Shown: positions 20,480 through 32,732 of the stretch, piece by piece
Layout of the letters: each line of letters opens with the position of its first letter
How positions within the stretch are numbered: the stretch's first letter is position 1
Assembly: GCF_013408535.1 (NCBI RefSeq)
Contig: NZ_JACBZA010000001.1
Coordinates: 1,696,850-1,760,849 of the forward strand
Direction of reading: 5' to 3'
DNA from: Actinopolymorpha cephalotaxi
GTDB lineage: Bacteria > Actinomycetota > Actinomycetes > Propionibacteriales > Actinopolymorphaceae
Length of the DNA: 64,000 bases
Made by a program: the position numbers and the translations under genes
The notes under the pieces: model-generated
The model's input: the letters and a program-made list of their open reading frames with translations, nothing else
Databases searched by the model: none
Told to the model about the DNA's origin: nothing

Positions 20480-21834
20480 TGATCCGTCGCATCGACCTGC
20501 GCGGCCTCGCCGTCTCCGGCGCCGGCCTCGACTACAGCGCTCTCGTCCCGCGTGCTCCGTTCGACGTGGAGGCGGCCGTGGAGGCCGTCCGCCCGACGCT
20601 CGCCGACGTACGCCATCGTGGGGTCGAGGCGCTGCGCGACTACGCCGCGCGGTGGGACGACGTGCAGCTCACCGACATCCGGGTGCCGAAGGCCGCCCTG
20701 GAGCAGGCCCTGCGCGAGCTCGACCCCGACGTACGCGCGGCGTTCGAGGAGTCCATCCGCCGGCTCCGCACGGTCAGTGAGGCCGAGCTGGAGCGGGACT
20801 CCGAGGTCCGGGTCGTCCCCGGCGGCACCGTGACCCAGCGCCTGGTCCCGTTCCGGCGGGTCGGTGTCTACATCCCCGGCGGGGTGGCTCCGCTGGCGTC
20901 CAGCGTGGTGATGAACGTCGTGCCCGCGCAGGTCGCCGGTGTGCAGTCGGTGGCCCTGGCGTCCTCGCCGCAGAAGGAGTTCGGCGGCCTGCCGCACCCG
21001 ACGGTGCTGGCCGTGGCCGAGCTGCTCGGTGTGGACGAGGTCTACGCCGCCGGTGGCGTGGCCGCGGTCGCGATGTTCGCGTACGGCGTGCCGGCCGGGG
21101 TCGGAGCCGGCGACAGCCGGCTGCTGTGCCGTCCGGTCGACTTCATCGCCGGCCCGGGCCGGATCACGACCACGGCCGCCAAGCGCCTGGTCAAGGGAAC
21201 CGTCGGCATCGACTCCGAGGCCGGGCCGACCGAGATCGCGATCCTGGCCGACGACTCCGCCGATCCCGCCTACGTCGCCGCCGACCTGATCAGCCAGGCC
21301 GAGCACGACACCGTGGCAGCCAGCGTTCTGGTCACCCCGAGCGAGGACCTGGCCGCGGCGGTGGAGGGCGAGCTCGCCCACCAGGTGCCGGCCGCCAAAC
21401 ACGTTCAGCGCATCACCGAGGCGCTGGACGGGGAGCAGTCCGGCATCGTGCTGGTCGACGACCTGGAGCAGGGGCTCGCGGTCGTCGACGCCTACGCCGC
21501 CGAGCACCTGGAGATCCACACCGAGAACGCCCGGGAGTGGGCCGGGCGGGTACGCAACGCGGGCGCGATCTTCGTCGGGCCCTGGTCGCCGGTGTCCCTG
21601 GGGGACTACTGCGCCGGGTCCAACCACGTGCTCCCCACCGGCGGCTGCGCCTGTCACTCCTCCGGGCTGTCGGTACGCAGCTACCTCAAGGCCGTGCACG
21701 TCGTCGACTACGACCAGGCCGCGCTGCGCGAGGTGGCCGGCCACGTCACCGCCCTGGCCGAGGCGGAGGATCTTCCCGCACACGGGCAGGCCGTCCGGGC
21801 GCGGTTCGGATCCGCGTCCGACGGGTATGCCTGA
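20479..21834 (+). CDS. hisD: HisD, histidinol dehydrogenase
   Basis: NAD- and zinc-dependent enzyme making the last two oxidations of histidine synthesis. The 451-aa product shows [16 protein letters not shown] near residue 132, [14 protein letters not shown] near residue 195, and the [13 protein letters not shown] and [23 protein letters not shown] segments with the catalytic Glu/His and zinc ligands. First gene of the operon; the stop is 58 nt before the preferred hisN start (8-nt overlap if the longer hisN is used). Confidence 0.96.
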
Positions 21835-21892
21835 TGGCCCGCCGCCCCACCGGCGCGCACGCTGCGGCCCCTCTCGACGAATCGAGCCAGTC

Positions 21893-22705
21893 ATGACCAG
21901 ACCGGTACACCCCGGGCGGCCGGAGGATCCGGCATCCCTGGACCAGGATCTGCGCGATCTCGCTCTGGCCGCCGCCCACGCGGGGTCGCACGCGATCCTG
22001 CGTGAGCTGCGCGGCGGCGAGCTGCGGATCGACACCAAGGCGCACGCCGCCGATTTCGTGACCACGGCCGACAAGGCGGCCGAGGGCGCGATCCTGCGAC
22101 TGGTCAGTGCCGCCCGTCCGCGCGACGCGGTGCTGGCCGAGGAGTCCGGCGTGCACGACGGCGACAGCGGCGTGCGCTGGCTGGTCGACCCGCTGGACGG
22201 GACGATGAACTTCGTCCACCGCCGCCGCGACTACGCCGTGTCCGTGGGCGTCGAACGCGACGGCCGGATCGTGGCCGGCGCGGTCGTCCGGCCCGCCGAC
22301 GGCGACTGGGCGGCGGCCGGCGGCGCGGAGGTGTTCGGCCGGGACGGCACGCCCCGGGTGTCTTCGGCGGTCGACCTGTCCGACTCCATCGTCGGGATCG
22401 GGCTGCCGGGGGTGCTGGACCACCGCACCCGGGTGCACACGTTCCTCGGCGAGCTGATGCACCAGGCGCGCGACTACCGCCGTACCGGCTCCTCGGCCTG
22501 CGAGCTGTTGTCGGTGGCGCTCGGAGCGCAGGAGGGCTACCTCGGCTTCGGCGTCAACATCTGGGACGTCGCGGCCGGGATCGCGCTGGTCGACGCCGCG
22601 GGCGGATCCAGCGAGTTCGTCACCACCTCGAGCGGGCTGGAGGTCCTGGTCGCCGGCACGCCGGAGGTCACCAAGACCCTGGTCGGCATGGTGAAGGTGA
22701 TCTGA
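21893..22705 (+). CDS. hisN: HisN-type histidinol-phosphate phosphatase (inositol monophosphatase family)
   Basis: Mg-dependent IMPase-superfamily phosphatase. Motifs: AADFVTTADKAAE (about residues 44-56), EESG, WLVDPLDGTMNFVHR (metal-binding, about residues 98-112) and NIWDVAAGIALVDAAGG. The place between hisD and hisC, in a genome where the HAD-type phosphatase is not seen here, points to histidinol-phosphate as substrate rather than inositol phosphate; this is inference. The chosen ATG gives 270 aa. An ATG at 21827 overlapping hisD would add 22 atypical residues. Confidence 0.87.
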   Translation: MTRPVHPGRPEDPASLDQDLRDLALAAAHAGSHAILRELRGGELRIDTKAHAADFVTTADKAAEGAILRLVSAARPRDAVLAEESGVHDGDSGVRWLVDPLDGTMNFVHRRRDYAVSVGVERDGRIVAGAVVRPADGDWAAAGGAEVFGRDGTPRVSSAVDLSDSIVGIGLPGVLDHRTRVHTFLGELMHQARDYRRTGSSACELLSVALGAQEGYLGFGVNIWDVAAGIALVDAAGGSSEFVTTSSGLEVLVAGTPEVTKTLVGMVKVI

Positions 22706-25239: not shown

Positions 25240-25254
25240 TAGCCTCGGCGACCA
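25240..25254 (+). promoter_or_regulatory. Internal leaderless promoter for priA/hisA
   Basis: TAGCCT (25240-25245) lies 8 nt before the priA ATG, in a 73-nt gap after hisH; a secondary promoter inside the his operon is likely. Confidence 0.5.
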
Positions 25255-25973
25255 TGAGCCTCGCGTTGCTTCCCGCGGTCGATGTCGTCGACGGCCAGGC
25301 CGTCCAGCTGGTGCAGGGCCGAGCCGGTACGGGCGGCCAGTACGGCAGCCCGCTGGAGGCGGCCATGGCCTGGCAGCACGCCGGCGGGCAGTGGGTGCAC
25401 CTGGTCGACCTGGACGCGGCGTTCGGCCGCGGCGACAACCGGGCGGTGCTCGCCGACATCATCGGCCGCCTCGACGTACGCGTGGAGCTGTCCGGCGGGC
25501 TGCGCGACGACGACGCGCTCACCTGGGCGATGGGCACCGGCTGTGCCCGGGTCAACCTCGGCACCGCCGCGCTGGAGAACCCGCAGTGGTGTGCCCGCGC
25601 GATCGCGGAGTACGGCGACCGGGTGGCGGTCGGGCTGGACGTACGCGGCCGCACGCTCGCCGCGCGCGGCTGGACCAGGGAGGGCGGTGACCTGTTCGAG
25701 ACCCTCGCCAGGCTTGATGCCGAGGGGTGCGCGCGATATGTCGTCACCGACGTCAACAAGGACGGCATGCTGCAGGGGCCGAACGTCGACCTGCTGCGCG
25801 ACGTGTGCGCCGCGACGGACCGGCCGGTGGTCGCCTCCGGAGGAGTGTCCAGCCTGGACGACCTGCGCGCGATCGCGGCCCTCACCCCGCTGGGGGTGGA
25901 GGGCGCGATCGTCGGCACCGCGTTGTACGCGGGTGCGTTCACGCTGGAGGAGGCACTCGCCGCCGTCAGCTGA
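25254..25973 (+). CDS. priA: PriA/HisA, phosphoribosyl isomerase A
   Basis: Beta-alpha-8 barrel isomerase. In actinobacteria this enzyme usually serves both histidine (HisA) and tryptophan (TrpF) synthesis. The N-terminal catalytic Asp is in [15 protein letters not shown], and the C-terminal half has [18 protein letters not shown] (second catalytic Asp) and [22 protein letters not shown]. The GTGGQYGSP loop matches the bifunctional PriA type; dual function is inference from the family, and no trpF is visible in this window. Followed by a hairpin, so it probably ends the hisD-priA unit. Confidence 0.93.
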
Positions 25974-26011
25974 CCCGTACGGCGTAAGTGATCCGGTCCG
26001 TCGCGTCCATG

Positions 26012-26053
26012 CCGGGCCGGCCGGTCCTGGCAGTTCCGGACGGGCCGGCCCGG
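26012..26053 (+). terminator. Hairpin after priA
   Basis: CCGGGCCGGCC (26012-26022) pairs perfectly with GGCCGGCCCGG (26043-26053) around a 20-nt loop, 39 nt after priA. Probably separates the his genes from the lipid-like cassette. Confidence 0.65.
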
Positions 26054-26071
26054 TGCCCGCGGGGGTGCGGA

Positions 26072-26077
26072 TAGGGT
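26072..26077 (+). promoter_or_regulatory. -10 box of the acyl-reductase cassette
   Basis: TAGGGT, directly after the priA hairpin; transcription from here would give a leader of about 55-60 nt before the TTG start. Suggests the cassette has its own promoter. Confidence 0.4.
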
Positions 26078-26141
26078 GTTGCGAAACCAGCCCGGGTGAC
26101 CCCGCTGGACCTGTCATCACCATGTCGACGGAGGGGAAGAG

Positions 26142-28421
26142 TTGAGGCTCAGGGAGCGACTCGACGGGAAGCGGATGCTTCTCACCGGCGTCACCGGCTT
26201 CGTCGGCGAGGCACTGCTGCACCGCATCCTCCGTGACCTTCCGGGCACGCACGTGGTGGCGCTGGTCCGGCCCAAGGGTTCGCTGACCGGCCGGGCGCGG
26301 ATGGAGCAACTGGTCAACAAGCCGATTTTCGAACAGGCCCGGTCCCGGTACGACGGTGACACCGCGGCCCTGCTCGACGACCGGGTGAGTGTGATCGAAG
26401 GCGACCTGTCCGACGTTCCGGAGTTGCCCGGCGATCTCGACGTGGTGATCCACTGCGCCGGCGACGTGTCGTTCGACCCGCCGATCCACCAGGCGTTCCA
26501 GACCAACGTGCTCGGCACCGAGATGCTGCTGCGCCGCATCCTGGAGAGCGGCAGCCAGGCGCACTACCTGCACGTGTCCACGGCGTACGTCTCCGGCCGC
26601 CGCCGCGGCGCGATTCCCGAGGGGCCGGTCGACCACACCGCCGACTGGCGCACCGAGGCCCGCTGGGGCCAGGCCATGCGGGACCGGATCGAGGAGACCT
26701 CGCGGGCGCCCGGCGTCCTTTCCAAGCTGCGCCGGGAGGCCGAGCGGGAGCACCGCCGGGCCGGGCCGATCACCTCCGCCCAGGACACCGAGCGGCGCCG
26801 CAAGGAGTGGGTGGACACCAAGCTGGTCGAGGCCGGCGGGGAGCGGGCGAGGTCGCTCGGCTGGACCGACGTCTACACGTTCACCAAGGCCCTCGGCGAA
26901 CGCGTCGTGGAGGAGATCGGCGCACCGCTGCCGGTCACGATCCTGCGGCCGAGCATCATCGAGAGCGCACTCGAGACCCCCCACCCGGGCTGGATCGAGG
27001 GCTTCAAGATGGCCGAGCCGCTGATCCTGGCCTACGGCCGGGGTGAGCTGCCGGAGTTCCCCGCGAGCCCGGACTCCCAGTGCGACATCGTTCCGGTCGA
27101 CCACGTGGTCAACGCCACCCTGGCCGCCGCGGCGGAGCGCCCGGAGCCCGGCAGTCCGGCGTACTTCCAGGTGACGTCGGGGCTGCGCAACCCGCTCACG
27201 TTCGCAATGGTGTTCGAGCTCGTCCACGAGTACTTCGACGCGCACCCGTTCGACATGAGCGAGCGCGGCGCGGTGCGGCTGCCGACGTGGCGGTTCCCGG
27301 GCGGCGAGCAGGTCGAGCGCACCCTCGCTCTCGGCGAACGCGCGCACAAGGCGGCCGACTACCTCGTCTCCCACGCGCCGCGCGGCGAACGCGTCCGGAA
27401 GATCGCCCGCGACCTCGACCAGCAGCGGCGCCGGCTGGACTTCCTGCGCCGCTACCACGACCTGTACCGCCCCTACCTCGAGACCGAGCTGGTCTTCACC
27501 GACGACCACACCGTCGCGCTCTACAACGGTCTCGACCTGGAGGACCAGCAGGAGTTCTCCTTCGACATCACCTGCTTCGACTGGCACCACTACTTCGTCG
27601 AGGTGCACTGCCCGGCCGTGACCGAGGCGATGCGCAAGTACGACGTGATCCGCCGCCGGCGCGGCCGCTCCACCCCGGCGGTGGCGTCGCAGCTGCCCGC
27701 GGGGAACAACATCGTGGCGGCGTTCGACATGGACGGAACGCTGTTGTCGTCCAACGTCGTGGAGACCTACCTCTGGCTGCGGATGCCGGAGCTGGACCAG
27801 CAGGGCAGGGCCCGCGAGCTCGGCGCGCTGGTCCGGCGGCTGCCCGGGTTCCTGAACGCCGAACGCAAGGACCGCGGCCGGTTCCTGCGCTCGGTCTACC
27901 GCCGCTACGCCGGCGCCGACCTCGCCGAACTGGAGCACATCGTCGACGAGACGCTGTCCCAGCACGTGCTCGAACGCGTGTCCGCCGCGGCCCTGCGCCG
28001 GGTGCGCGCCCACCAGGCGGCCGGGCACCGCACCGTGCTCATCACCGGTGCGATCCGTCCGCTGACCCGTCCGCTGGAGCCGTTGTTCGACGAGATCGTG
28101 GCGGCCGACCTGGCCGTCGACGACCGCGGACGGTGCACCGGGTTCCTGTCCGGCCCGCCGCTGGTGGGCGAGGCCCGGGCGGCCTGGCTGACGCGGTACG
28201 CCGCCCAGCGTGACCTCGACCTGACCAAGTCGTACGCCTACGCCGACAGCCACTCCGACCTGCCGATGCTGCGGGTGGTCGGCCGCCCGGTCGCGGTCAG
28301 CCCCGACGTCCACCTGTGGCGGGAGGCCCGCAAGGGCCGCTGGCCGGTGGAGGAGTGGAAGACCTCGAGCTCGGTGTCCCGACTGGCCCTGCCCGGCGCT
28401 CACTCCGGGAGCAGCTCATGA
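26142..28421 (+). CDS. Fatty acyl reductase-like (FAR/SDR) protein fused to HAD-IB phosphatase
   Basis: 759 aa, two enzymes in one chain. Residues about 10-370 are an extended SDR of the fatty acyl-CoA reductase type: nucleotide loop TGVTGFVGEAL (15-25), active-site Ser in HVSTAYVSG (about 146), and YxxxK as Y245-K249. After a linker, residues about 525-740 form a HAD-IB (SerB-like) phosphatase with DMDGTLLSSN (529-538), a mid-domain LITGA motif and the ADSHSDLPML motif IV. By family the first half reduces an activated acyl group and the second removes a phosphate. TTG start, with GGAGGGGAAGA just upstream. First gene of a four-gene coupled cassette. Confidence 0.85.
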   Translation: MRLRERLDGKRMLLTGVTGFVGEALLHRILRDLPGTHVVALVRPKGSLTGRARMEQLVNKPIFEQARSRYDGDTAALLDDRVSVIEGDLSDVPELPGDLDVVIHCAGDVSFDPPIHQAFQTNVLGTEMLLRRILESGSQAHYLHVSTAYVSGRRRGAIPEGPVDHTADWRTEARWGQAMRDRIEETSRAPGVLSKLRREAEREHRRAGPITSAQDTERRRKEWVDTKLVEAGGERARSLGWTDVYTFTKALGERVVEEIGAPLPVTILRPSIIESALETPHPGWIEGFKMAEPLILAYGRGELPEFPASPDSQCDIVPVDHVVNATLAAAAERPEPGSPAYFQVTSGLRNPLTFAMVFELVHEYFDAHPFDMSERGAVRLPTWRFPGGEQVERTLALGERAHKAADYLVSHAPRGERVRKIARDLDQQRRRLDFLRRYHDLYRPYLETELVFTDDHTVALYNGLDLEDQQEFSFDITCFDWHHYFVEVHCPAVTEAMRKYDVIRRRRGRSTPAVASQLPAGNNIVAAFDMDGTLLSSNVVETYLWLRMPELDQQGRARELGALVRRLPGFLNAERKDRGRFLRSVYRRYAGADLAELEHIVDETLSQHVLERVSAAALRRVRAHQAAGHRTVLITGAIRPLTRPLEPLFDEIVAADLAVDDRGRCTGFLSGPPLVGEARAAWLTRYAAQRDLDLTKSYAYADSHSDLPMLRVVGRPVAVSPDVHLWREARKGRWPVEEWKTSSSVSRLALPGAHSGSSS

Positions 28422-29602
28422 TGCTGGCGTTGGAGATGTACCGCTCGCTGCCCCGCTACATCGCCGCCCGGGCGGTGGGCGGCCGGGTTCCGGGCATCCT
28501 CACCGGTCCGGCCGCACCCGTGCGGCTGGTCAACCGGGCGGAGCCGCGCACCTCGGCCCCCGGCTGGGCGCGGGTCAAGCCGATCCTGTCCGGCATCTGT
28601 GGCTCCGACCTCGGCGCGCTGTTCGGGCAGACCAGCATGTACTTCTCCGCCCTGGTGTCGATGCCGTTCGTTCCCGGCCACGAGGTGGTCGGCGAGCTGG
28701 TGGACGACTGCGAGGACCTTCCGGCCGGCACGCGGGTCGTGCTCGACCCGGTGCTGTCCTGCGCGGCCCGCGGGGTCGAGCGCTGCCAGTCCTGTGCGAG
28801 CGGGCAGACCAACCGCTGCGACCGGATCACGGTCGGGCACGTCTCGCCCGGCCTGCAGACCGGCTACTGCGCCGACACCGGCGGCGGCTGGGGCGGCCAG
28901 TTGATGGCACACCGCAGCCAGCTGCATGCCGTGCCCGACGGGCTGTCCGACGAGCGCGCCGTCCTCGTAGAGCCGCTGGCCTGCGCGGTGCACACCGCGA
29001 TGCGGGCCCAGGTGCCCGACGGCGGATCGGTGCTGGTGTCCGGTGCCGGCGCGGTCGGGCTGTTCGCGACGCTGGCGCTGCGCGAGCTGACCCCGGCGGG
29101 CCGGATCAGCGTGGTCGCCAAGCACCCCCGCCAGCGCGAGCTGGCCAGGGCGTTCGGTGCGACCGACGTCCTCGCTCCCGACGAGGTGCCGGCGCGCGTG
29201 CGCCGGGCGACCCAGGCGTTCCGGCTGACCCCCGAGCGCAGCGGTGAGTTCCTGCTCGGCGGTGTGGACGTCGGGATCGACGCCGTGGGCAGCAAGGACT
29301 CCCTCGGTACGACGCTTCGAGTCACCCGCGCCGGCGGCCGGGTGGTGCTGTCGGGCATGCCCGCGGCCGGAGCGGACCTGTCGCCGGTGTGGTTCCGGGA
29401 GCTGGAGGTCGTGGGCGCGTACGCCACCCAGGGCCGCGAAGCCTTCGCCCGGGCCCTCGACCTGGCCGCGAGCGCGCCGCTGGACGGCGTGGTCGGCGGC
29501 CGTTACCCCCTCTACCGTTGGCGGGAGGCGCTCGACCACGCCCACTCGGCCGGGCGGCTGGGGACCGTCAAGGTGGCGTTCGACCTAAGGAGCAGCAGGT
29601 GA
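28418..29602 (+). CDS. Zinc-dependent alcohol dehydrogenase (MDR family)
   Basis: 394-aa medium-chain dehydrogenase. Catalytic zinc region: GICGSD (Cys61) and GHEVVGE (His88, Glu89). Structural zinc cysteines are spread as Cys115, Cys123, Cys126 and Cys134, an unusual spacing. The NAD(P) loop is VLVSGAGAVGLFATLAL. The N-terminal 35 residues (RSLPRYIAARAVGGRVPG) precede the usual fold. ATGATG start overlapping the reductase stop; GGGAG upstream. Coupling suggests it interconverts an alcohol and aldehyde made by the upstream reductase; the substrate is not known. Confidence 0.85.
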   Translation: MMLALEMYRSLPRYIAARAVGGRVPGILTGPAAPVRLVNRAEPRTSAPGWARVKPILSGICGSDLGALFGQTSMYFSALVSMPFVPGHEVVGELVDDCEDLPAGTRVVLDPVLSCAARGVERCQSCASGQTNRCDRITVGHVSPGLQTGYCADTGGGWGGQLMAHRSQLHAVPDGLSDERAVLVEPLACAVHTAMRAQVPDGGSVLVSGAGAVGLFATLALRELTPAGRISVVAKHPRQRELARAFGATDVLAPDEVPARVRRATQAFRLTPERSGEFLLGGVDVGIDAVGSKDSLGTTLRVTRAGGRVVLSGMPAAGADLSPVWFRELEVVGAYATQGREAFARALDLAASAPLDGVVGGRYPLYRWREALDHAHSAGRLGTVKVAFDLRSSR

Positions 29603-31179
29603 GCCGACCAGGATTCGTACTCGAGGTCGACGACCGGACGCCACCCCTCGTCGTGCACGACGGCGAGGGCTTCCGGCTGGAGAAGTTCCCGCTCGGCACC
29701 CGGGTGGTCTACTCCCCGGAGTCGCAGCCGGGGCTTCGCGACGTGGACGCCGCGATCAGGCACGCGCTGGAGCAGCCGGAGAACTCCGAGCCGCTGCGGG
29801 CGCTGCTGCGGCCGGGCATGAGGCTCACCATCGCCTTCGACGACGTGTCGCTGCCGCTGCCTCCGATGAAGCGGCCGGACATCCGGCAGCGGGTCGTCGA
29901 GCAGGTGCTCACGATGGCCGCCGAGGCCGGCGTGGACGACGTGGAGATCATCGCGGCGCTGGCCCTGCACCGGCGGATGAAGCCGAGCGAGCTCCAGCAC
30001 GCGCTCGGCGAACGCGTCTACCGCTCGTTCGCCCCGGACGGACTGCTCTACAACCACGACGCCGAGGACCCCGACAACCTCGAGTTCATCGGCACCACCG
30101 ACCAGGGCGAAGAGGTCGAGATCAACAAGCGGGCGGCGCAGTCCGACCTGCTGGTGTACGTCAACATCAACATCGTGCCGATGGACGGCGGGCACAAGTC
30201 GGTGCCGATCGGCCTGGCGTCCTACCGCTCGCTGCGCCACCACCACAACAGCAAGACCATGGTCCACTCGCGGTCCTTCATGGACCACAAGAAGTCGGCC
30301 ATGCACCACTCCGCCTGGCGGATGGGCCGGCTGTTGAAGGACCACCTGAAGATCTTCACGATCGAGACCACGCTCAACAACGACGTCTTCCCCGCGCCGT
30401 ACGACTTCCTCAACAAGCGCGAGTGGGAGTGGAACGTCCGCGACCAGGCCACCATGCTGGCCGCCAAGCGCGGGTTGGCGGTGGCCCCGTCGAAGCTCCG
30501 GCGCAAGATCTTCCAGGGGATCCAGGCGCCCTACGGCATCACCGGGGTGCATGCCGGTGAGACCGAGGCCGTGCACGAGAAGACGCTGGCCAAGGTCTAC
30601 AGCCAGCAGGCGGTCGAGGTGCAGGGCCAGTCCGACGTCCTCATCATGGGCGTGCCCTACCTCTGCCCGTACAACGTCGACGCGGTGATGAACCCCATCC
30701 TCGCCACCTGCATGGGCCTGGGGTACTTCTTCAACTCCTACCGCAACAAGCCGGTGGTCCGGCCCGGCGGCGCGGTGATCCTCTACCACCCGGTGCCGTA
30801 CGAGTTCAGCCAGCTGCACCACCCGAGCTACGTCGACTTCTTCGAGGAGGTGCTGGCGGAGTCGACCGACCCGGCGACGATCGAGCAGCGCTTCGAGAAG
30901 CAGTACGCCACCGACCCGTGGTACATCCACCTCTACCGCACGTCGTACGCCTACCACGGCGTGCACCCGTTCTACATGTGGTACTGGGCGGCGCACGCGA
31001 TGGACCACGTGGGCGACGTCGTGTGGGTCGGTGCGGACCGCCGCGCGGTGGAGCGGATGGGCTTCCGGTCCGCCTCCACCCTCGCCGACGCGCTGGAGAT
31101 GGTGAGCGGCACGGTCGGGCGTTCGCCGTCGATCACCTACACGCACAACCCGCCGCACCTGATCTCGGATGTGCGGTGA
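29599..31179 (+). CDS. LarA-like (DUF2088) racemase-family protein
   Basis: 526-aa protein related to nickel-pincer lactate racemases. Family landmarks: FDDVSLPLPPM (about residues 80-90), AALALHRRMKPSELQ (119-133) at the site of the LarA HRPMT motif, and YNHDAEDPD (151-159). In this family the cofactor is made by LarB, LarC and LarE, none of which is adjacent. The C-terminal ~200 residues (PYLCPYNVDAVMNP, HHPSYVDFFEEVL, YAYHGVHPFYMWYWAAHAMDH) are longer and more aromatic than in LarA. GTG start in a GTGA overlap, with AAGGAG upstream. Substrate unknown; probably a hydroxy-acid or hydroxy-acyl compound of the cassette. Confidence 0.8.
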   Translation: MSRPGFVLEVDDRTPPLVVHDGEGFRLEKFPLGTRVVYSPESQPGLRDVDAAIRHALEQPENSEPLRALLRPGMRLTIAFDDVSLPLPPMKRPDIRQRVVEQVLTMAAEAGVDDVEIIAALALHRRMKPSELQHALGERVYRSFAPDGLLYNHDAEDPDNLEFIGTTDQGEEVEINKRAAQSDLLVYVNINIVPMDGGHKSVPIGLASYRSLRHHHNSKTMVHSRSFMDHKKSAMHHSAWRMGRLLKDHLKIFTIETTLNNDVFPAPYDFLNKREWEWNVRDQATMLAAKRGLAVAPSKLRRKIFQGIQAPYGITGVHAGETEAVHEKTLAKVYSQQAVEVQGQSDVLIMGVPYLCPYNVDAVMNPILATCMGLGYFFNSYRNKPVVRPGGAVILYHPVPYEFSQLHHPSYVDFFEEVLAESTDPATIEQRFEKQYATDPWYIHLYRTSYAYHGVHPFYMWYWAAHAMDHVGDVVWVGADRRAVERMGFRSASTLADALEMVSGTVGRSPSITYTHNPPHLISDVR

Positions 31180-31186
31180 GCCTGGC

Positions 31187-32119
31187 ATGAGCAGCAAGAA
31201 TCCCGTGCGCTTCGTCCGGGAGACCGCGCAGGACGTACGGACGGTGGCGCGCGGCTGGCGCTGGGGACGGCGGCCGCTGGTGCCGTTGTCGGCCCAGCCG
31301 TTCCAGCCGCCGAAGCAGCCCTCGGTGTTCCCGACGGCCTGGGCCCGCACCCCCACCGCCAACGCCGTGCGCGACGTGGTGCAGCGCTTCGGGCTGCACC
31401 CGTTGCTGAGCTCCACCATCACCCCGCATTCGGCCGGGCTGGACGTCCTGACCACGCTGAAGCCGCCGGTGCTGTTCGTGGCCAACCACACCTCGCACCT
31501 GGACACCCCGCTGATCCTGTGTTCGCTGCCGGACGAGTGGCGCCGCCGCACCGCGGTGGCGGCCGCGGCCGACTACTTCTTCGACACCTGGTGGCGGGCG
31601 AGCGGTTCGGCGATGGTGTTCAACACCTTCCCGATCGAACGCCGCGGCGGCACCCTGTCGACCACCCCGGGCGACGTGCTCGATCAGGGCTGGAACGTCG
31701 TGGTGTTCCCCGAGGGAACGCGCTCGGTGGACGGCTGGGCCACCCGGTTCCGGCTGGGCGCGGCCTGGCTGGCCGTCGAGCACGGCGTACCCGTCGTCCC
31801 GATCGGGATCCGCGGCTCCTACGCCGCGATGCCGCGCGGGCGTGGCTGGCCCCGTCCGGGCAGGCTGCCGGTGCGGATCCGGTTCGGTGCGCCGGTGTGG
31901 CCGGCCGAGGGCGAGGCGCCGCGCACGTTCGCGCCCCGCATCCAGCAGGCCGTGTCGCGGCTGCTCGACGAGGACGCGACCAGCTGGTGGGATGCCACCC
32001 GGCGGGCCGCACGGGGCGAGACCCCCGACCCGGCCGGGCCGCAGGTCGCCTCGTGGCGCCGGATCTGGGCACAGACCGCACCGCCCGCCGAGGGCCGCAA
32101 GCGCGGTGCGTGGCGTTAG
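31187..32119 (+). CDS. PlsC-type 1-acylglycerol-3-phosphate acyltransferase
   Basis: 310-aa acyltransferase. The HX4D motif is NHTSHLD (His101, Asp106), and the second signature FPEGTRS is near residue 173, followed by VPVVPIGIRGSY. These are the catalytic and glycerol-phosphate-binding motifs of the PlsC family. The N-terminal 95 residues lack a clear membrane helix; a Trp-rich, basic stretch (ARGWRWGRRPL) may associate with membrane. The ATG is 7 nt after the LarA-like stop; an ATG at 31169 overlapping that gene is possible. Last gene of the cassette. Confidence 0.87.
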   Translation: MSSKNPVRFVRETAQDVRTVARGWRWGRRPLVPLSAQPFQPPKQPSVFPTAWARTPTANAVRDVVQRFGLHPLLSSTITPHSAGLDVLTTLKPPVLFVANHTSHLDTPLILCSLPDEWRRRTAVAAAADYFFDTWWRASGSAMVFNTFPIERRGGTLSTTPGDVLDQGWNVVVFPEGTRSVDGWATRFRLGAAWLAVEHGVPVVPIGIRGSYAAMPRGRGWPRPGRLPVRIRFGAPVWPAEGEAPRTFAPRIQQAVSRLLDEDATSWWDATRRAARGETPDPAGPQVASWRRIWAQTAPPAEGRKRGAWR

Positions 32120-32198: not shown

Positions 32199-32732
32199 AT
32201 GAGCTCGGCACCGAACCCCTACGACGCGCTGCCGAAGGTGGCTTCGTTCACCTTGACCAGCGACGACATCGCCGACGGTCGCACCCTGGCGACGCCGCAT
32301 CTGTCCGGGATCTTCGGTGCGGGCGGGTCCGACACCTCCCCACACCTGGCCTGGTCCGGCTTCCCCGAGGAGACCCGTAGCTTCGCCGTCACCGTCTACG
32401 ACCCGGACGCGCCGACCGCGAGCGGCTTCTGGCACTGGGCGGTCTACAACCTCCCGGTGACCACGACCGAGCTGCCCACCGGCGCCGGTGACGCCGCCGG
32501 CGCCAAGCTGCCCGACGGCGCGGTCACCCTCATCAACGACGGCGGCGTACGCCAGTACCTCGGGGCCGCGCCGCCGCCCGGGCACGGTCCGCACCGGTAC
32601 TACTTCGTGGTGCACGCCCTCGACGTGGACAGCCTCGACCTGCCCGAGGGGGCGAGCCCGGCGCTGCTCGGCTTCAACCTGTTCGGGCACACGGTCGGCC
32701 GGGCGATGCTCGTGCCGACCTTCGAGGCATGA
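32199..32732 (+). CDS. YbhB/YbcL family PEBP-like protein
   Basis: 177-aa protein of the phosphatidylethanolamine-binding-protein/Raf-kinase-inhibitor-like family. Landmarks: SPHLAWSG-like segment ([19 protein letters not shown]), [20 protein letters not shown] with the ligand-pocket Asp/His, and [13 protein letters not shown]. No signal peptide; cytoplasmic. GAGGAGG precedes the ATG. The stop overlaps hisF by ATGA, so it is coupled to a histidine gene with no known functional link. Biological role unknown. Confidence 0.88.

Follow-up and report, generated by a model that had tools for sequence, protein, structure and literature searches.

In Myxococcus xanthus, parts of the elb operon encode a HAD protein, ElbB, and a multidomain protein, ElbD, that joins fatty acyl reductase (FAR), acyl-CoA synthetase, acyl carrier protein (ACP) and acyltransferase domains; MXAN_1674-1676 is described alongside it (PMC9131029). 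LarA and its relatives, which use a nickel-pincer nucleotide (NPN) cofactor, are the other described systems that bear on this work. An Arg (or Lys) in LarA binds both the NPN phosphate and the substrate carboxylate, and LarA groups 14 and 15 are reported to lack the second histidine; for one relative (PDB 9q3k), whose gene lies near sugar-phosphate enzymes, the authors built a model with a phosphorylated linear aldose that they themselves term 'highly speculative' (PMC12611868). In seven hydroxy-acid assays, all without long-chain substrates, a LarAH14 protein from Frankia was inactive (PMC7583248). Here we describe a cassette of four genes in a 64,000-nt stretch of the Actinopolymorpha cephalotaxi genome (the window; contig NZ_JACBZA010000001.1, positions 1,696,850 to 1,760,849), which encodes a FAR fused to a HAD phosphatase, a zinc alcohol dehydrogenase (ADH), a LarA-like protein and a PlsC-type acyltransferase. 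With confidence a little above even, we read the cassette as a self-contained operon for making an acylated lipid derived from a fatty alcohol, the most plausible product being an alkyl-acyl glycerol (an alkyl-ether glycerolipid). The genes are, in window positions:

26142..28421, + strand: FAR-HAD, a fatty acyl reductase (about residues 1-515) fused to a HAD-IB phosphatase (about residues 525-740) (Pfam/NCBIfam)
28418..29602, + strand: zinc medium-chain dehydrogenase (ADH) of the polyol / ketose-reductase type (domain models, PDB match)
29599..31179, + strand: LarA-like protein of group LarAH14/15/16 (NF052592)
31187..32119, + strand: PlsC-type acyltransferase (PF01553)

A preliminary description of this DNA had reported these four genes at the same positions and on the same strand, coupled by overlaps and a 7-nt gap, and all of this was confirmed. 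FAR-HAD starts with TTG, with a Shine-Dalgarno-like GGAGGGGAAG upstream. The ADH start, ATG at 28418, overlaps the FAR-HAD stop (ATGA), and the LarA-like gene starts at a GTG (29599) that overlaps the stop of ADH (GTGA); residues of the LarA-like protein are numbered here with base 29614 as the beginning of residue 1. The most likely PlsC start is ATG 31187, which leaves the 7-nt gap to the LarA-like gene, while the alternative ATG 31169 would give an 11-nt overlap. The genome is a single contig of 6.86 Mb; its LarA-like protein is 92-93% identical to those of two named Actinopolymorpha species, and FAR-HAD identity reaches 97% in other members of the genus (g1).

The order of the four genes is widely conserved. 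We used a phylum sample of 296 genomes and an order sample of 245, with the genome under study (G000) included; gene identities, motifs, gene order and the co-occurrences reported below were all computed. The model for the LarA-like protein, NF052592, scored above its cut-off in 72/296 phylum genomes and 60/245 order genomes. A scan of named genomes found at least 578 relatives, the best 80 of which came from Actinopolymorpha, Kribbella, Nocardioides, Frankia, Parafrankia, Actinomadura, Actinoallomurus and Haloactinopolyspora, from three records titled Streptomyces and from many metagenome-assembled genomes (MAGs). From 116 loci (L034-L149) we kept as testable those with LarA identity above 50% and enough flanking sequence, leaving out 20 with too little flank, eight with LarA identity of 50% or less and one (L061) without a match. 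FAR, HAD, ADH, LarA and PlsC occurred in this order in 82 of the 87 testable loci across Actinomycetota, in at least eight named genera as well as in MAGs and other genomes; the exceptions are L048, which lacks ADH, L051, L068 and L069, which lack an adjacent PlsC, and L063, where FAR-HAD-ADH lies 6.4 kb upstream of LarA, too far for the test to count it, and PlsC was not seen. Such an order is far beyond chance, and the cassette is real and conserved. The preliminary description had proposed a search for the same order in other actinobacteria, and its idea of a functional cassette survives this search, as the genes do co-occur. The FAR-HAD fusion that it had reported also held up, being a single open frame in 82 of the 86 loci that hold both parts. 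When flanking genes were clustered, every other cluster was confined to at most 17 of the 116 loci, and because no other cluster exceeds this number we consider the cassette self-contained. At L051 (10516-12394, minus strand) genes for a MOSC-domain protein and a protoglobin stand between ADH and LarAH14.

FAR-HAD contains the Pfam domains NAD_binding_4 (residues 14-326), Sterile (432-493) and HAD (526-711), and the HAD-IB model TIGR01490 matches residues 526-722 with 111.8 bits vs a cut-off of 98.3. Its best PDB match is the rice fatty acyl reductase DPW (7eoz; E 9.6e-55, residues 3-518), and the HAD part matches 3fvv. Across 33 aligned sequences TGxTGF, Y245, K249, D529, D702 and D706 are invariant, so that both the TGxTGF and YxxxK motifs of a fatty acyl reductase and the catalytic aspartates of a HAD-IB phosphatase are intact; the AlphaFold2 (AF2) model has a mean pLDDT of 86.4. 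For ADH the best PDB match is a ketose reductase (1e3j), and profile and PDB searches place it nearest to ketose reductase and to idonate, threonine and sorbitol dehydrogenases, enzymes whose substrates are polyols and related compounds and that react at a secondary alcohol or ketone; CGSD and GHE are invariant in 23 aligned sequences and the structural-zinc cysteines are conserved in at least 90%. The acyltransferase matches PF01553 and a PlsC structure, the 1-acylglycerol-3-phosphate acyltransferase 5kym (E 9.5e-14), with HX4D (H107, D112) and the PEGTR region, including EGTR, conserved in 21 aligned sequences; the narrower model TIGR00530 stays under its cut-off (59.7 vs 102.95 bits). A route from acyl thioester to alcohol followed by acyl transfer, as the preliminary description had proposed, is the natural reading of these identities.

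The LarA-like protein belongs to the NF052592 family (LarAH14/15/16), which it matches over positions 1-520 of the 520-position profile with 927 bits vs a cut-off of 740. In 120 LarAH14 sequences D77, H119, N184, K195, H211, H321, H403, H448 and H451 are invariant; K195 and H211 correspond to the NPN lysine K184 and the nickel histidine H200 of LarA. Only the first of the two catalytic histidines of LarA (H108 and H174) has a counterpart, H119 in 120/120, and no conserved histidine was found in residues 182-193. Position 80, placed by alignment to 9eia where LarA has the carboxylate-binding Arg (a role taken from PMC12611868), is Leu in 96 sequences, Ile in 22, Val in one and Cys in one, and in none is it Arg or Lys; these residues argue against an alpha-hydroxy-acid substrate. 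With both the second histidine and the carboxylate-binding Arg absent, ordinary hydroxy-acid racemisation seems unlikely. The hydroxy-acid chemistry that the preliminary description had assigned to this protein therefore finds no backing, the Frankia LarAH14 having been inactive as well; nor did we find an activity in this group that would bear out its NCBIfam name, 'hydroxyacid isomerase'. A mean pLDDT of 95.4 was obtained for the AF2 model of the protein, to which 9q3k is the nearest solved structure (TM-score by query 0.78). The genome carries two further LarA-like genes with a Lar_N domain (L002, L003), of which L002 resembles by eye the single-histidine LarA_Sp. Elsewhere, L054-L059 hold LarAH14 relatives of 35-41% identity with a similar active site and no cassette; nearby genes there encode CoA-transferase III (L055, L059), a 4Fe-4S ferredoxin-type protein (L058, L059) and a short-chain dehydrogenase/reductase (L054).

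The genes for NPN synthesis usually accompany LarAH14. In the A. cephalotaxi genome larB and larC are adjacent and larE lies elsewhere, all three scoring over cut-off. In the order sample larC was found in 60/60 LarAH14 genomes vs 52/185 others, and in the phylum sample in 63/72 vs 130/224. Where LarAH14 is the sole Lar_N protein, 35 of 41 phylum genomes have larC, and where there is no Lar_N protein 69 of 160 do (18 genomes with very weak Lar_N matches were counted among the latter).

ADH and LarAH14 are strictly paired: among the 245 order genomes, the 60 that have an ADH orthologue (E <= 1e-60) are exactly those that have intact LarAH14. FAR-HAD is found in 122 of the 245, and the 62 of these without ADH all belong to one family, f72. 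In 44 of the 62 a LarA-like gene scoring below cut-off follows FAR-HAD within 193 nt, with larC present in 14 of the 44; the remaining 18 show no LarA-like match beside FAR-HAD. We read 15 of the 44 loci (L155-L169). None has an ADH match, and in the LarA-like protein the NPN lysine and H210 are gone from all 15 and H119 and H211 from 13 each, R91 being kept throughout; PlsC-like matches follow in 13 of the 15. The f72 proteins have fewer nonsynonymous than synonymous changes (dN < dS) in the six closest locus pairs, yet they evolve faster than FAR, unlike the full cassette, in which LarA is the best-conserved member. In a tree of FAR-HAD sequences, the main f72 clade (18 loci) and a group of Nocardioides, Kribbella and Actinopolymorpha are sisters, and because the f72 clade nests inside cassette-bearing lineages, the f72 state reads as a loss of ADH and of LarA catalysis. 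From the exact co-occurrence, the larC coupling and the f72 pattern we conclude that the cassette falls into two units, one made up of ADH and intact LarAH14 together with the NPN pathway, the other of FAR-HAD with PlsC.

The LarA-like pseudoenzymes of L155-L169 are in frame beside FAR-HAD (e.g. L157 4739-6223, minus strand) and perhaps belong to group 16 of the literature, for which a lack of conservation at the NPN residues is reported (PMC7583248). Two other f72 loci, L171 and L172 (genus g211), have neither LarA nor ADH nearby, and in L172 a HipA-type gene follows FAR-HAD. In the tree their FAR-HAD sequences fall with those of Haloactinopolyspora and Actinoallomurus (support 0.67 and 0.95), as if acquired by transfer.

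How might the parts work together? Here we infer every substrate, the order of the steps and the ether product. The FAR domain would take a long-chain acyl thioester and reduce it to the fatty alcohol (or aldehyde), LarAH14 and ADH would act as a hydride pair at a backbone carbinol, the HAD domain would remove a phosphate and PlsC would acylate a free hydroxyl. The outcome would be a glycerol lipid with an alkyl chain supplied by the fatty alcohol. The traits of ADH and LarAH14 hint at the C2 ketone/alcohol of a glycerol-like backbone, and the resemblance to parts of the Myxococcus elb operon lends slight support to an ether product. A further faint hint comes from family f19, which is probably, we assume, Rubrobacteraceae, and in which 24 of the at least 26 genomes seen have a LarAH14 match, 23 of them over cut-off: mixed ether/ester lipids are reportedly dominant in Rubrobacterales, to judge from the title of a study. 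A more specific version of the chemistry is a long shot: LarAH14 might be a transient-oxidation enzyme and not a racemase, its NPN taking the C2-carbinol hydride of an acylated glycerol (or glycerol-phosphate) so that the resulting ketone allows exchange of the C1 acyloxy group for the FAR-made alcohol, after which the hydride would be returned or ADH would reset the ketone. If true, actinobacteria would have a route to alkyl-acyl ether lipids that is aerobic and does not depend on AGPS, and the reaction would be, to our knowledge, the first non-racemase NPN chemistry.

Several observations weigh against an ether-lipid operon. No ether-forming enzyme (AGPS, Ger) lies within the cassette, the rest of the genome not having been searched, and among the literature matches listed there are no lipid data on Nocardioides, Kribbella or Actinopolymorpha that tie the cassette to an ether lipid. 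The exceptions to the gene order count here as well: the four loci without an adjacent PlsC (L051, L063, L068 and L069) all belong to f19, FAR-HAD-ADH is detached in L063 and ADH is missing from L048. The genome searches scored the best 7 first-look candidates per genome for ADH and the best 4 for FAR-HAD, and the co-occurrence counts are phylogenetically non-independent, amounting to far fewer than 245 events, with most positives in f1 and f73. Finally, in seven LarAH14 genomes (G084, G106, G160, G181, G213, G263 and G294) none of LarB, LarC and LarE scores over cut-off, and some lineages may therefore do without the NPN step. The completeness of these genomes is 81-98% (four at 91-98%), LarAH14 is the sole Lar_N protein in six, and all six whose loci were aligned (L005, L022, L029, L030, L048 and L050) have intact NPN residues. 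The cassette of G263 (L048) is the one that also lacks ADH, and G294 (L050) keeps it.

These seven genomes also speak for an alternative that we find fairly unlikely, namely that LarAH14 works without NPN, with another cofactor or as a scaffold, and that larC co-occurs for other reasons. Retention of the f72 protein after loss of its NPN site, with dN < dS in all six pairs tested, points the same way. Against such a role stand K195 and H211, invariant in 120/120 sequences, those from six of the seven genomes included, and larC, present in every positive order genome and in 35 of the 41 phylum genomes where LarAH14 is the sole Lar_N protein. Quite unlikely, in our judgement, is an alkane-1,2-diol or 2-hydroxy-fatty-acid lipid, for which FAR and ADH would reduce a 2-hydroxyacyl thioester to the 1,2-diol, LarAH14 would set the C2 stereochemistry and PlsC would acylate. 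It would give LarAH14 a substrate from the conventional LarA class, and 1,2-diol membrane lipids are known, their synthesis being unclarified in its details according to a 2009 genome paper (PMC2615216). The absent Arg and second histidine and the negative assays of the Frankia protein, limited as these are to shorter chains, tell against it, as does the flanking-gene analysis, in which no other gene cluster, whether of a hydroxylase or of anything else, was shared by more than 17 of the 116 loci.

A third possibility is a wax-ester or storage-lipid module, in which FAR-made fatty alcohol would be esterified by the PlsC-like enzyme and ADH and LarAH14 would have side roles. Actinobacteria store neutral lipids, and a FAR with an acyltransferase is the minimal logic of wax-ester synthesis. 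We regard it as very unlikely, since the acyltransferase resembles PlsC and the two proteins that a wax would not need, LarAH14 and ADH, are strictly paired and have the highest mean column identities (69% and 58%, vs 52% and 48% for the other two, in alignments of different sets). The last alternative concerns the surroundings of the cassette, which lies among histidine genes:

21827-22705: inositol-monophosphatase-family gene between hisD and the aminotransferase gene of the his operon
25254..25973, + strand: priA (bifunctional hisA/trpF), upstream neighbour (TIGR01919)
25974..26141, + strand: spacer separating priA from the cassette; contains a strong GC-rich hairpin (folding, promoter/terminator scan)
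32199..32732, + strand: YbhB/YbcL-type PEBP-family protein between the cassette and hisF (PF01161, TIGR00481)

The HAD domain could in principle be a histidinol-phosphate phosphatase and the cassette part of histidine biosynthesis, given its place between priA and hisF, the position of 18 of 20 f72 loci also beside priA, and weak matches to HAD-type models of that enzyme (73.6 and 72.4 bits vs cut-offs of 400 and 280). The chance of this is close to negligible: the his operon already holds the inositol-monophosphatase-family gene, presumably of the HisN kind, and we rejected the HAD domain as histidinol phosphatase on that ground. Among L034-L149, moreover, priA is near the cassette in just nine loci, all from Actinopolymorpha or Kribbella-like genomes, and we likewise rejected the his region as a functional clue. 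The his-region position noted in the preliminary description is thus accurate here but not general, having been seen only in Actinopolymorpha, Kribbella-like genomes and f72. One priA-linked cassette, L089, comes from a record titled Streptomyces sp. SID13031, has Kribbella-like identities and is probably a mislabelled Kribbella.

Upstream of the cassette, the 168-nt spacer folds with -89.4 kcal/mol (z = -2.09; 4 of 200 shuffles fold equally well or better), in agreement with the hairpin reported before. The accompanying claim of an own -10 box fared less well, as a promoter scan of the spacer between priA and FAR-HAD called neither a sigma-70-like site nor an intrinsic terminator; the box that was meant may be the string TAGGGT near 26072, which to the eye matches weakly. 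We rejected a sigma-70 promoter or terminator at the hairpin as unproven.

The pathway had also been called undescribed. No paper describing the four-gene cassette was found among the literature matches listed, which supports that claim in part, as the coverage extended neither to the lipid study of Rubrobacterales nor to Table S1 of PMC7583248. The cassette places an orphan nickel-pincer group in the setting of a pathway, gives it a partner enzyme with which it is strictly paired and supplies a natural series of losses, and its four genes are candidates for the synthesis of unusual lipids, possibly ethers, in aerobic actinobacteria at large.

Each component can be set beside a known system. 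The reductase resembles DPW and other FAR1-type enzymes over nearly the whole of its FAR part, with the same NAD_binding_4 and Sterile domains, but differs in its C-terminal fusion to a HAD-IB phosphatase. The acyltransferase shares the HX4D and EGTR motifs with the PlsC of 5kym, but falls below the TIGR00530 cut-off, and its acceptor is only putative. LarAH14 has the fold, the NPN lysine, the nickel histidine, the single catalytic histidine and an Asp at the ribose-binding place in common with LarA_Sp and LarA_Bw (9q3k, 9q3j); unlike them, it has no Arg or Lys at the phosphate/carboxylate position and is conserved with a fatty acyl reductase instead of sugar genes. As a whole, the cassette is like the Myxococcus elb operon and MXAN_1674-1676 in bringing FAR-like, HAD-like and AGPAT-like parts together in one operon (PMC9131029). 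It departs from elb (ElbC being left out of the comparison) in that none of its four proteins contains an acyl-CoA synthetase or ACP domain or is an AGPS homologue, as an operon of the ElbD/AGPS type would have, that the HAD phosphatase is fused to the FAR, and that a zinc ADH and LarAH14 are present in addition.

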